Source of the DNA: Nephromyces sp. MM_2019
Taxonomy: Eukaryota; Apicomplexa; Aconoidasida; Nephromycida
Direction of reading: 5' to 3'
NCBI GenBank assembly: GCA_015657535.1
Contig: JADHZB010000291.1
Span: forward strand, 1-29,751
DNA length: 29,751 nt
In this document: in pieces, positions 5,455-24,200 of the stretch
Position numbering within the stretch: the stretch's first letter is position 1
How the letters are laid out: every line of letters begins with the position of its first letter
The notes under the pieces: model-generated
The model's database searches: none
The model's input: only the letters and a program-made list of their open reading frames with translations
What the model was told of the DNA's origin: nothing
Position numbers and translations under genes: made by a program

Positions 5455-7587
5455 TTAACATAGGATTAAAATTATAAAAAAAGTTTCCATTATACACACA
5501 CATAAAAAGACGTTCAAATATGAAATACTCTCAAATGATTTATAAATCCTGATTTCACAAACACATTTGACAAACCATTTAACTATAACATCCTCTGTTA
5601 AAAAAAATACATTTTCTATACGATTTCCATATGATTTATTTTGTGGGTGCATGAGAGGAGGGTGTGCGGTCATTTTGGGGTGGAAAACTCTAGAGGCAAG
5701 ATTGAATACGTTACAGAATATAGAGGGTTTATCATTATGAGTAGATTCTGTAGATGATGTATTTCTATGTTGTTTATCTTCTCCACCTCTTGTGTAGCCT
5801 GTTTCAGTTTCATATGTAGATTGTTGTGTGTTGTTTGTGTTGGTGTAATAATAGTCATCACGGTACCCATCATAGCCTATGTGTGTGTATTATGTACAAT
5901 CGAGGATTGGCTTATTTGATTTCTGAAAGTGTATATATTTTCATGATGATTTAAGGATCATAGATACTATGTGTAACTGTTATCCTTAGGTTAGGTTAGA
6001 TCTAAATAGCATATAAATCAACACATAAAGAAACTTATACACATAGAACCGAAAATATTTAAGGGTGTTAGCCTGAATATATATATGTATATACCTAATA
6101 TACATGTTTGTAAAATATACGTGAAAAAAAATTATATATCGAGAGAATTAAAAATATAAAAGTGTAAAGATTTACGCGAAAATATTTAAATATATAGGTA
6201 AAATAAGATTTATGTATCTGTATATATAGGAATAAATCATGTATTCAAGCTTAGAATGATCAATATCTACACAAACATACAGGTGTTATCTGATTTATTT
6301 CTTGAAGCCTTTTTTGATTGTGTTTGACTTGTCTTTGTGTTGTTATCATCATCTGTCTTAGCTTGGTATTTTTCTCCACTCTGGCCCTTATTATACTCAG
6401 AAGAATTAGAATCACTTTTTGTGTTGTTATATTTTGTGTGTGATTTCTCATCTGGTGTGTAATTAGGAGATCTTCTCTTCTGCTGTTTCTTGTGTTTGTA
6501 TACATATTGATATCTGATAAATAAATTTAGAAATGTGATCTCAATTAACTTGAGATCATTTAACTAAATTCCTATTATATAAACTATGATTTGATAATAT
6601 GTGTGTAGGTGGAATTTTGAATAAGTGTGAATTATGTTTAGATATGTGTTTGTAAGATATAAACTATTATCTATATGCTTTTAGAAATTTTTAAATTTGT
6701 GTGTGTGTATTAGGTAACTGCTTATACCCATAAAAATCTTCTAACTCCTCATCTGAGTCAATAAATGCTCGATTATATGAGCTCTTTGACTTTTCATTTA
6801 GCCCCATATCAGACCTGGAAATAAAGTAGATAATGATTTTTAACTATCTCTAATTAGCTAACAAAAAAGCACTGAAAAATATATAAGATGACCATATGTT
6901 ATGTAAATTGTTGCCTATAAAAGCAAATTCTAAATCATAAAGATAAAATCATGATTTATAGATAGAGTCTCATAAATTAAATACAAGCCTTTCATACATC
7001 TATATACCATATAGGTATCGTCTACCTATATACACACCAGGTGCTTGTCTCGCTCAAAGCACACAAACAAAGGTATAATAAAGCTAAAATTCATATATTG
7101 GCAACCCAAACATACAATACATGCACGCAACTCATTTGTACACCTCACACACACATTAGCACAAAGTACATAACCCACCTCCTCCAAACAACGAACACAC
7201 ATCACGCACATAAACAACACAATAATATGGGTCGTACCAAACGCTGGAAAAGCTCCATGGGTTTGTATGTCGACGTGAATCTGTAGTATGTGAGTTGTCC
7301 TTCCAAAATGAGAATTCAAGATCTTCAAAATTCTCATTCCTGTACTTTTTATGGTATGATTTTTGGTTGTGATAGCTGTAGTGGATGTCGTAAGTATCTC
7401 TATCATTCAATAAGGTTTGATAGGCCTCTTGGATTGCTTGGAATTTGTTAGTAGTATCTTCAGGTGCGTTCTTATTCAAGTCTGGGTGGTATTTTTTGGC
7501 TAATTGGTAAAAAGCCTTCTTAATTTCATCAATGCTTGCGCGTGGTGTAACACCTAAAATTTTGTATTGGTTGACGAATGATTTCAT
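5455..7587 (-). CDS. J-domain (DnaJ/Hsp40) co-chaperone with C-terminal hydrophobic tail, 4 exons
   Basis: J-domain proteins stimulate Hsp70 ATPase activity. Exons: 7587-7238, 6814-6728, 6513-6281, 5876-5455; phases 2, 2, 1 all close, giving 363 residues. The J domain is residues 8-70: YKILGV near its start, a basic helix II (DEIKKAFYQLAKKYHPD) with the HPD triad at 34-36, then FQAIQEAYQTLLN. No G/F-rich region or zinc-finger CxxCxGxG repeats follow; residues 118-300 are polar, rich in Lys, Asn, Ser, Thr and Tyr. The last exon stays open for 139 codons and ends in a strongly hydrophobic stretch (about 343-363, YLNVFLCVCIMETFFIILIL plus Cys), which could be a tail anchor. Start 7587 gives MKSFVNQYKILG; an in-frame Met at 7677 would add 30 residues. 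The exon 1 donor (TTTG|GTACGA) is the least certain border; GTGTGTTCG about 40 bases on is an alternative of the same phase. Confidence 0.8.
6536..6558. repeat. 9-bp perfect inverted repeat (hairpin) in J-protein intron 2
   Basis: TGATCTCAA and TTGAGATCA flank a TTAAC spacer. It lies in the intron 6514-6727, 23 bases upstream of exon 3 in plus coordinates, so in the transcript it forms a potential hairpin just after the splice donor side. No known function. Confidence 0.6.
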
Positions 7588-8981
7588 GTTGGTAAGTGTT
7601 GTGCTTACATACCAGTGTATATTTATTGGTGATTTTGAATAAAATTTTAAAAAGACACCAGAACAAAACACCTCCAAAACATAGTATATAAAGTTTAGTA
7701 TGCTAGAGTTTTAAAGTAGCTCACCTATACAAAAGTGAGATTGTTGTTTCTAAATTATACAAGTTGTGATGTTTTATCAAAAAGAAATTTCGCTCTGTTA
7801 CAATGAAACGAGTTCTAATGATTAAGCCGAAGGTTAATATAGTGGCAAATTTGTTTAAATGTATGTGTTTATGGAAGTTGTGCTGTATTGTTATTAAGGT
7901 ATGTAGGATTAGGCTAATGTCAATAATTTTATTTCAATAAGAGGTTATAACACAAATCATGGACAACTTATTGATCAAGTAAACTTGTATGATCATATCT
8001 TCATGCAATTAGATGTATTGTGTTTTGATTTTATGAGATGAAAATTTTCTTTATCCTGTGTCTGCTTGTCACATATAAATCTCGTAGCCATAGCACTCTG
8101 ATGAGATGCATAAGCATGTACGCGTTTGGTTATATAAATACTACCGAATCATAATTACCTACTAGTAATCATTTCGTACAAGCTCCTCATACATAAGTTG
8201 ATATAAACAATGGTAAACAATGAGCTATGTATATTGCAAACGAAGCATGAAAGAAGCACATTGTAATAGTTTATATTCTCTAGTTATATTAGCTAGGGCT
8301 TGTTATCAAACTGCACATTTGTTTCATTTTGTGAACGTTGTGTTCAAATAAAGTGTAATGATGTTTTTAATACAACTATTTCGTTCAAATTCGGTTCAGT
8401 GATTGAAGTTTATGAATTTAATTTCATCAAGTGTATACAAACAACTAAAAAAATGCAAATATTGTTATTTGGTACCAAACAAATCTTAATCGTCGTTTAA
8501 ATAAATATATAAAAAGCAGTTAACATTAAAGTTAACCAAAATGAATTGTAAGAAATTTTCACTCAATAAAAGGAAAATAAGGAAAATTTACATCTTCCCT
8601 GTTCGACGTTTATCATTAAACATCTGAAGAAACATCAAACATAAATAAATCTTATGTGTATCAAAAAGTTGTCGAGAAAATGTATTATTTTTATATGCTT
8701 TAGTTTCCAAAATTATTCATGCAAAGGGAAACGAATTCATGGAAAATTTAGTACAGGAAATATTTTTCTCCTAGGATGAATGTTTAGGTATGTTAAAGAA
8801 TTGAAAAATCTTACAAAATAAAATTTTAATAATTAGTTATCAAGTTAAGATTAGAATGTATTTATTATAAATTTCAACTGTATCTCAAGATTAATTTGTC
8901 AAGGAAAATTGTTACATAAGAATTCTCTATTCAATGTTAAATGAGTAATATATATCATGTAATTTATTAATTATTTTTGTT
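7588..8981. other. intergenic between J-protein and peroxidase genes
   Basis: Holds the 5' region of the J-protein gene and the 3' UTR of the peroxidase. AT-rich with few TG/CA tracts. A plus-strand open frame at 8300-8500 is of chance length and unsupported. If the peroxidase is a selenoprotein, its SECIS RNA hairpin should lie here on the minus strand. I looked for an ATGA...AA...GA stem by eye in 8520-8980; the best partial is near 8700-8740 (GTTTCC pairing with GGAAAC after an ATGA), but it lacks a proper 3' GA, so I do not call it. Confidence 0.5.
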
Positions 8982-9799
8982 TCATCTATAACAAACCTCT
9001 ATCACAGATTCCTCCATCTCACTAGGTGCTATTCGAGGTCCAAAATATTGAACCTTTGTAGCATCACTGTTGACTAGGAATTTCCCGAAGTTCCAACCAA
9101 TGGGGCGTAATTTAGTATTCGAAGACTATAAAATATACAATCAATTGGGTTTAATAATGAAGTTGAAAAGAGGATAAAGTCTTTTTTATATTTATAAATG
9201 TGTTAAATTATCCTATCTAGCATATATTTTTACCTCTATGGTAGGTAAAGATCCATAGTTGTAAACATACTTCAAGAATTGAAATACCGGATGTGCATCA
9301 TCACCATTGACTTTAACTACGTCATAGACGTCAAATTGGGTGGAAAATGTGTCAAAGTAATTGACTAGAGTTGTACCAGAATTAGGTTCTTGATTAAATT
9401 GATTAGATGGGAAAGCTAAGACCTATACGAAAATATAAAGAAAACAAATTGTAATTCTTTAAAGAGTCTTCATTATTATTGTTATGGTACAAAGATAGTT
9501 ATCCACATTAGAAAATTCAATCGTGACCGAATTATCGTTTCTCAAAGACATGGAAACAATAAAAATACTATAAAATATCTTCCTACCTTTAATCCCTTAG
9601 GTCCATATTGTTCTTGTAAATCGACGAGTTCAGTTATTTGTTTGGTAGCTAAGCCTCATTTTGAGGCAGTATTGACAACAATAAACGGGTTTCCTTTGTA
9701 TTTGGACATAGATACTGGATTCCCGAGTATATCAGTTGCCGTTATATCGTAAAAATTAGTAATTGCTTGAGTCATTTTTGAAGATTTGATGTTTCCCAT
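8982..9799 (-). CDS. glutathione peroxidase, probable selenoprotein (TGA at the active site), 3 exons
   Basis: Thiol-dependent peroxidase that reduces hydrogen or lipid peroxides. Exons: 9799-9587, 9422-9234, 9125-8982; all joins are phase 0, giving 181 residues with Sec as U48. The family order is intact: FYDITATDILGNPVSMSKYKG, IVVNTASK then TGA then GLATK (the catalytic position), LQEQYGPKGLKVLAFPSNQF (catalytic Gln about 79), VNGDDAHPVFQFLK, and IGWNFGKFLV (catalytic Trp about 145, Asn 146). The coding frame resumes perfectly after TGA, where homologues have Sec or Cys. FPSNQF carries Ser where many family members have Cys. The only other Cys is three residues from the end. Start 9799 gives MGNIKSSK, a good N-myristoylation signal; an in-frame start at 9928 would add 43 residues with a hydrophobic segment. 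Alternative explanations for TGA are a base error (TGT or TGC) or a recent nonsense mutation. Confidence 0.85.
9656..9658 (-). other. in-frame TGA, probable selenocysteine codon of the peroxidase
   Basis: The codon sits between NTASK and GLATK, exactly where the peroxidatic selenocysteine or cysteine of the GPx family lies. Exons before and after it are in one frame and conserved. Recoding needs a SECIS element, not identified here. Confidence 0.7.
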
Positions 9800-10973: not shown

Positions 10974-11028
10974 NNNNNNNNNNNNNNNNNNNNNNNNNNN
11001 NNNNNNNNNNNNNNNNNNNNNNNNNNNN
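10974..11028. other. assembly gap (55 N)
   Basis: A run of N, followed at 11029-11048 by AAAAA and two G runs of seven and six broken by AGA. The G runs are foreign to the local composition and may be an assembly-edge artefact. Confidence 0.97.
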
Positions 11029-21243: not shown

Positions 21244-24200
21244 ATGAACTCATCTCCAATCAATGAGGCTGACACCAGTCACCTAAAGGTAAGACACACC
21301 AGTATAGCATTTCAATTGATAAGATTTAAACAACCTATGATATAAAAAGGGAAAAACAACTCTATATTAATATGGATCGGCAATATGTTCTACAATTTAT
21401 CATTTCTTAAATATCTAATTCGAATGATATGATATTTATAAACGAAACGTATTTAACAACCATCCGTAACGACATATTGCTTGATAAGCTCAGGACATAG
21501 TCATCCCATTGATGATTATCTATACTCGAATTTTTTTCTCATTGAAAAATTATACATAAAAACATTGAAAAAAATTTACTTTAAATGAGTGATTTAGCTT
21601 TACATAAGATTTTTACATATAAATGCATATAAACCATATATAAATTCTTGGCCACTATGGTTTTTATTAGGATAACTCATGCTCTATTCTTTTCTTGTAC
21701 TGATATCACAATCAGATAAATACTTATATATATACATAGAGATTGCACAAGGACATTTTTTTTACACCTATAAGGCATGTATCAATTACTCGCATATTAT
21801 AACCATTATGCAAAAATTTAAACTTTACACCATCTATTAATCAGAAGAGTATATATATATATATATACTTTTAATACAATAAGCATTTATATAAATACAT
21901 ACACACCTATGTTTTCTTTCTAGACTTCTACACAAAATGAGGATAAACTGATCATTTCTTCGAGATTTGGTAAGTAATCTTATCTACACACACAAATACA
22001 AAGAGGTGCATATTTAATCACACATACAAATATCTGAACAAAACAAACAATATTTTAAATTCAAGATTTATACAACTTGGGAAATCTTGACTATATGTAT
22101 TCTATTATAATTATACCCATATTTGTTATTAATTTCTTTTTATATTACATATATACAGTTAAATCTGGGCCAGATGATTCTCAGACACCATCTACCATTT
22201 ACATTTGGGGGAGTAAGTTATATATATATATATATATACATTTTAAATGTGTGTGTACTTTATCTATGCATATAATTTATTTTGTGTATATCTACGTATT
22301 TACTTCTAAATATACAACATTTTTGTTTAGTTGTGTCTGTTTTTATTTATTAATGCGTGCATTGGCCATATATCTGTACTTATGAGCTAGGTATTTATGT
22401 TTAAATGTATATATAATATAAATATGTGTGCCACTAGATAATTATTTATCTAATTATACATGTAAGCATACATTTATCCAAGCCCTTACCGTATATACAC
22501 TATCCTTGGGTTGAAAAAGTTGTTTATTGGCAATTTACACACAATTATACGTATTTACTGCACTTTGTCATCTTGTATTCATACAAACGCAACTTAATAT
22601 CTAATTTAACTCCATATAAATAAAATTACGCATCCATACACATCCTTGAATGTGGCATTATATTAGATTTCATAGATGAAAGGTTGGAGGGGCCTATCAT
22701 TATTAAGGAATTGTTTAGCTTTACAATTAGGAGCGTTGCCATTGGAAATACACACATTTTATTTCTTACACACACTGGTGAACTGTTTAGTTATGGTGAA
22801 GGATTTGATGGTCAATTAGGATTAGGTCACCACCAAACAGTTGCAAACACACCCCAATTAATTAACATACCAAATACTATCAAAGAAATAGCCTGTGGTC
22901 ATTCACACTCTATAGCCTTAACACATGATGTCTGTAACTTTGTGTGTATTTGCTTTATATATTGGTCCCATTCAAATTGACTTTTGTTACATCTATGCAT
23001 ATTTTACATGAGTAGCTTTACACGTTTTATCAAACACATGAAATCCTATAAATGATTTAACTCAAATATAAAACTACAATTTATCACACATAAGATACAC
23101 ACATTCTATCCAATACACATGTAAATGAACACAATATTTCAAATAGACACACACAATAACACCCTTTTTGCACATTTAAATAAATAGACACACTATACAT
23201 CAACTACAGACGCACTCTATACCGAACTGAAACACACTCTACATCAAATATACTCGCACTCTATATCTACTATACTCACACTCTATATCTAATATACGCA
23301 CACTCTATATCTAATATATGCACACTATTTTTCAAATATACACTCACATATATATTTACTTAATATACGTCAGTTTAAAATGAAATATACATTGTGTTCA
23401 GGGTCAGGTATATATATGGGGCTCAGGAGAGACAATCGGGGAAGAATGGTCAAATTCACATTACACACCCATTTTAATGTCATATTTTACACATTATAAA
23501 ATTGTGTGTGTAGCTATTTATTCATATAATTTAACCAGTATAATAGCTTCTTCAGATGGAAATGTATATGCTTTTGGCAATTATTTTACACACAATTTTT
23601 ATCGTACACCTACACACCTCTTTAAATTGGATGAAATTGATAACTCTATACGCCAAATAGCTCTTGGACATATGTTTGGAATTATTTTAACAAGTGTGTG
23701 TGTGTGTGTGTTTACGTGTGTGTAAAATATATCTTTGTAAATTCATATATGTATACATGTGTATGTGAGTATGCTTTAACTTATTCATTCTTGTAAATAA
23801 ATAAATATATATATATATACATTTGGATGTGCAAGTATGTGTAAAAACTCCCACATGTTTGTAATTGCATATTTATATATATGTATATACATGTGTGTGT
23901 GTGACTTCAGTGCTTGTAGCTGCTATATATATATATATATATATATGTTTAAAAATATTGAGGTGTGTGCATATGTATCTATTTGTATACAAATACATGT
24001 ACTTACGACTATATCTGTAAATAGTTATTTCAATATCCATAGATATGTCTATTATGAGTTTATATCTATAGCTATATGAATGTAAGCCTGTGTGTGAATA
24101 TTTAGCTTTCTGATGACACAAGTGTGGTCTCATTTCGTATGTATAAGAATAGTAATATGGCTATAACTGTGTATGTATATTTATCTATGCGTATAAATTG

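Follow-up and report, generated by a model that had tools for sequence, protein, structure and literature searches.

The glutathione peroxidase (GPx) gene on the minus strand of the window, by which is meant the whole stretch of 29,751 nucleotides that was analysed, is probably an apicomplexan gene for a selenocysteine (Sec) GPx, its in-frame TGA being read as Sec. Contig C150, which the window covers in full, belongs to a 48.28 Mb assembly of 1127 contigs. The TGA (9656..9658, minus strand) is the peroxidatic (Sec/Cys) codon, residue 48, in the context NTASK-TGA-GLATK. A Sec-GPx in an apicomplexan-like protist had been proposed in a sequence-only reading of this DNA, and the proposal is supported by the TGA codon, by the intact active site and by the presence of tRNA-Sec and eEFSec genes in the assembly. 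The weak links of this reading are the SECIS and the species assignment.

The GPx gene was modelled by joining exons at GT-AG sites, which gave 567 nt in frame and a protein of 188 aa with exactly one internal stop, the TGA at 9658-9656. Exon 1 (9587..9799), running from MGNIKSS to GPKGLK, was defined by its reading frame, its GT donor and its match to Pfam GSHPx. It is followed by intron 1 (9423..9586, GT-AG), exon 2 (9234..9422), which has the FPSNQF motif with the active-site Gln, intron 2 (9126..9233, GT-AG) and exon 3 (8997..9125), which has GWNFGKFL with the active-site Trp-Asn. A third GT-AG intron is predicted by its splice motifs only (8624..8996), and without it the GPx frame would stop at a TGA near 8982. 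Exon 4 (8588..8623; MFNDKRRTGKM-TAA), placed by its frame and acceptor, and the stop TAA at 8588 are likewise predictions from splice motifs. The frame had been described as continuing through three exons; its continuity was upheld, but the model has four exons, the fourth predicted.

The whole protein matched GSHPx with 98.5 bits over residues 16-122 (cut-off 27), and the part following the TGA (residues 54-188) scored 58.2 bits alone. The active-site residues Gln79, Trp145 and Asn146 were all present (motifs FPSNQF and GWNFGKF), so that the earlier description of the GPx motifs as intact, the Gln and Trp included, was borne out. The gene model contains no Cys codon. With TGA at the catalytic position and no Cys codon elsewhere, the pair of peroxidatic and resolving cysteines of the Plasmodium-type GPx is absent. 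The database matches listed were 33-44% identical to the window protein.

The position of the TGA at the catalytic codon was confirmed by alignment. The alignment and tree comprised 36 rows: the window GPx, a second GPx found in the assembly on contig C568, and 34 database proteins chosen from 344. In the column of the TGA, all 35 other rows have Cys. The highest identity to the window GPx in this tree was 44%, to an archaeal row. By simple arithmetic, the chance that a single nonsense change would land on the catalytic codon is about 1 in 188. An intron concealing the TGA was rejected by eye, as a GT...AG pair around it would delete the conserved strand and the active site.

Two tRNA-Sec genes, with the anticodon TCA, were found in the assembly on contigs C252 and C263, each scoring 72 bits (cut-off 47) and differing from one another at 12 of 86 positions. 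In this family search, 53 of 1510 candidates were scored; among the 15 matches obtained, these two were above the 47-bit cut-off, and several of the others read as tRNA-Ser or tRNA-Leu. An exact pattern search of the assembly recovered the same two tRNA-Sec genes and no further ones. Two eEFSec genes were also found, on C230 and C244, the latter truncated by the contig end. The joined C230 protein passed the cut-offs of both euk_SelB_III and eEFSec_4th, and its best match among solved structures was eEFSec (7.5e-93). These assembly searches gave no tRNA-Sec or eEFSec match on the window's own contig. No candidate for SepSecS (PF05889) or for SelD (TIGR00476) was obtained when the assembly was searched exon by exon, some of the sampled stretches consisting of N. 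Of the machinery that the sequence-only reading had suggested looking for, tRNA-Sec and eEFSec were recovered, in two copies each, but in these searches neither SepSecS nor SPS2/SelD. A genome lacking tRNA-Sec and eEFSec would have counted against a Sec-GPx; both are present at the level of the assembly, which holds several genomes. The assembly contains a Sec-decoding system, and the link of the window to this machinery is probable, but not proven, because the assembly mixes several apicomplexan-like genomes.

A search of the assembly for the Rdx family gave three exon matches, each under the cut-off before rejoining. The genes were rejoined by guess, after which all three passed the Rdx cut-off and two of the three also passed that of CXXU_selWTH. 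All three, a SelT-like gene (C647) and two SelW-like genes (C1006 and C564), carry a CGG-TGA motif. Both SelW-like frames have a second TGA at or near their end, which is presumably the stop codon. On the evidence of their sequences, these are probably three further selenoprotein genes.

A SECIS had not been found by eye in the earlier reading. A candidate is now placed in the 3' UTR of the window GPx gene at 8371..8435 on the minus strand, starting approximately 150 nt past the stop, with the order AUGA, 12 nt, AAA, mini-stem and GA. When positions 7100-9000 were searched, Rfam SECIS_1 matched 8435-8371 over all 64 model positions with 17.9 bits, which is below the cut-off of 35; at gathering scores, Rfam gave no match in the window. 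The E value was 4.6 over 4227 families, or about 0.001 for one family by division. The score was reached by 8 of 2000 dinucleotide shuffles of the 1001-nt 3' UTR, and by 1 of 2000 when the N12-AAA layout was required. In 336,656 real bases (both strands), which included some loci that had been picked as SECIS or selenoprotein matches, nine ATGA-N12-AAA places scored at least as well, the candidate included. This corresponds to an expectation of about 0.02 such places per kb of a single strand in real sequence. Two TG-repeat places of the window outscored the candidate. Its folding energy was ordinary (z +0.20; 113 of 200 shuffles folded at least as well), and it was not among the five SECIS_1 matches listed for the whole genome, where 133 of 957 candidates were scored. 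The candidate has the right place, strand and layout, and is plausible but weak as a SECIS.

Elements downstream of the other probable selenoprotein genes were obtained in the same scan, with the layout ATGA-N12-AAA for C647 and C1006 and GTGA-N13-AAA for C564. Their scores were reached by 6, 5 and 12 of 500 shuffles, respectively, compared with 0 of 500 for the corresponding element on C568. Rfam listed no SECIS_1 match in the stretches downstream of the three SelT/SelW genes; either Rfam is insensitive there or these candidates are not SECIS elements. A MAFFT alignment of the five candidate SECIS elements did not keep register.

The GPx gene on C568 is the only other one found in the assembly, and its catalytic codon is TGC (Cys). 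The two proteins are 43% identical and were grouped in the tree with support of 90/88, below the tool's 95/80 mark, on long branches. By reading of the frames, they have two intron positions in common, one after GLK in the window gene (intron 1) and ALE in the C568 gene, the other before the GWNFGKF exon; the C568 gene appears to have an extra exon. Past the likely end of this gene, at a distance of about 0.9 kb and on its strand, there is a SECIS-like element (C568:265074-265009, minus). It was the second of the five SECIS_1 matches listed (21.6 bits, E 2.5), and is not significant by score alone. With its flanks (91 nt), the element had a folding energy of -29.8 kcal/mol (z -3.81), which was equalled by 0 of 200 shuffles; for the 66-nt core alone, z was -1.48 and 20 of 200 shuffles were as good. 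As no other convincing coding frame was seen by eye between the GPx gene and the element, the gene may have changed from Sec to Cys and retained its SECIS. The Cys gene together with the SECIS-like hairpin suggests Sec/Cys exchange.

The alternative that survives best, although it is unlikely, is an error of base calling or assembly, the true codon being a sense codon, for Cys (TGT or TGC) or for another amino acid, in an ordinary Cys-GPx. TGA is one base away from TGC or TGT, and the related C568 gene carries TGC at this place. Such an error would, however, need to strike this one codon of 188. As the gene lacks any Cys codon, the protein has no residue to serve as resolving Cys, a state more fitting for a Sec enzyme than for a Cys enzyme, and TGA is also found at the redox codon of three other genes in the assembly. 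A recent pseudogene, with the TGA as a genuine nonsense mutation and the gene in decay, is less likely than such an error. The weak SECIS evidence favours decay, but the four-exon model has no further stop or frameshift, its splice sites are GT-AG, the sequence past the TGA still scores 58.2 bits, and the stop falls exactly at the Sec position.

The species of the window was addressed through the gene for ribosomal protein SA (RPSA; 139-963, minus), which is largely one open frame and gives 241 aa with the N-terminus missing. Its best match, first of 7865, was Cardiosporidium cionae, with 61% identity over 100% of the query. At this identity, the window species is a relative of C. cionae and not C. 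cionae itself. The single RPSA match points to a Cardiosporidium/Nephromyces-like group. The C. cionae assembly is given as 57 Mb with a GC content of 34.4% (PMC7737231). No Babesia or Theileria was present among the named rows in the best 120 of the 7865 RPSA matches. The earlier guess of a piroplasm lineage therefore fails for the one gene tested, RPSA being nearest C. cionae. Piroplasms are reported to be without tRNA-Sec, SelB and SelD (PMC10813123). An origin of the GPx gene in the animal host was rejected, since the RPSA of the same contig is nearest an apicomplexan and the window GPx lies outside the five animal rows of the tree (tunicates and vertebrates were not represented in it). 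A second RPSA copy, on C816, is split over three matches.

Other features of the window are a gene for a small protein with a J-domain (DnaJ), which directly follows the GPx gene (7586-7156, minus), RCC1-repeat sequence (22624-23725, plus) and a gap of 55 N (10974-11028). CA/TG repeats are denser to the right of this gap, so the two halves of the window could have separate origins.

Three distinct plastid tufA genes (C1009, C1112 and C318; 69-75% identity) show that at least three plastid-bearing organisms contributed to the assembly, and RPSA, GPx, tRNA-Sec and eEFSec are each present on two contigs. This bears on the possibility that the source of the window is one of the mixed species that has no Sec machinery, in which the TGA could not be decoded as Sec. 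Besides the number of plastid lineages, the CA/TG repeat content speaks for such a species, as the window is richer in these repeats than the sampled tRNA-Sec stretches. In this content the window is more like C244, which carries an eEFSec gene. The mixture also showed in composition groups drawn by eye from 34 sampled stretches, with C200, C950 and C1100 dropped as mostly N. When repeats were masked, the GPx piece of the window was nearest to C1006 (59; SelW), C198 (63) and C230 (64; eEFSec), compared with 78 for the neighbouring piece of the window, 82 and 102 for C244, and 90 for C252 (tRNA-Sec). The margins in this comparison are small, and the genome of origin of the window is not settled by composition alone. 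Its assignment is unproven, but C244, of the other, CA-rich kind of contig, also has eEFSec, so that both kinds resembled by the window carry this gene. With the four genes on two contigs each as well, an origin in a species without the machinery is even less likely than a pseudogene.

Reassignment of TGA to a standard amino acid in the nuclear genome is barely credible: the C1009 tufA has an in-frame TGA, so TGA may be a sense codon in that plastid, but Trp is coded by TGG once in the GPx gene and eight times in the RPSA reading (taken stop to stop, hence TGA-free by construction), on which grounds TGA as Trp was rejected, while a tRNA-Sec with anticodon TCA is present and in the CGG-TGA genes the TGA stands where members of their families have Sec.

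Under the preferred reading, that of a Sec-GPx, a 3' UTR hairpin of the SECIS type, for which the element at 8435-8371 is the weak candidate, would recruit eEFSec together with Sec-tRNA, and Sec would be inserted at residue 48. The resulting Sec48-Gln79-Trp145-Asn146 site would reduce hydroperoxides. Lacking any Cys codon, the gene is not expected to yield an enzyme that runs the two-cysteine thioredoxin cycle known from the Plasmodium-type GPx. In GPX4-type enzymes, the selenol is regenerated by glutathione or another external thiol, and by analogy the same may hold here.

The window gene resembles the Sec-GPx of the GPX4/PHGPx type of animals and algae in its GSHPx domain, its catalytic TGA and its Gln and Trp-Asn site. 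Among solved structures, GPX4 chains were its best natural matches, after two designed proteins. It differs from this type in being apicomplexan, in its 33-44% identity to the listed database matches and in its weak SECIS candidate. The GPx-like thioredoxin peroxidase of Plasmodium has the same domain and is also apicomplexan, and Plasmodium rows were among the nearest to the window GPx by tree path; the Plasmodium rows, however, have Cys at the catalytic column, in contrast to the TGA of the window gene, which is free of Cys codons. None of the selenoproteins of Plasmodium or Toxoplasma is known to be a GPx. Algal GPX is described as chiefly the Sec-containing form (PMC7539508), and the Plasmodium GPx-like enzymes as reliant on thioredoxin (PMC12486841). 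The selenoproteomes of Plasmodium and Toxoplasma likewise use an apicomplexan tRNA-Sec (PMC10813123); in the same paper Cryptosporidium, like the piroplasms, is reported to be without tRNA-Sec, SelB and SelD. These selenoproteomes are reported to be small, with at least four selenoproteins given for P. falciparum (PMC12486841) and fewer than four for Plasmodium (PMC7539508). Strong reduction is described for apicomplexan selenoproteomes, and reduction for that of Plasmodium (PMC2375036).

Literature searches covering listed entries and text passages of openly licensed papers gave no report of an apicomplexan Sec-GPx. Sec-GPx is a known kind of protein which appears to be new in Apicomplexa. 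The case is evenly balanced that apicomplexans of the Cardiosporidium/Nephromyces kind kept a Sec-GPx, with SelT and SelW, that was lost in their parasitic relatives, and that GPx is switching between Sec and Cys from one sister species to another, with an intact SECIS still present beside the Cys copy on C568. If the Sec-GPx is real, some members of the phylum have kept a selenium-based peroxide defence. The Cys homologue and the SECIS-like hairpin near it would give a direct view of Sec/Cys exchange, the direction of which could be tested.
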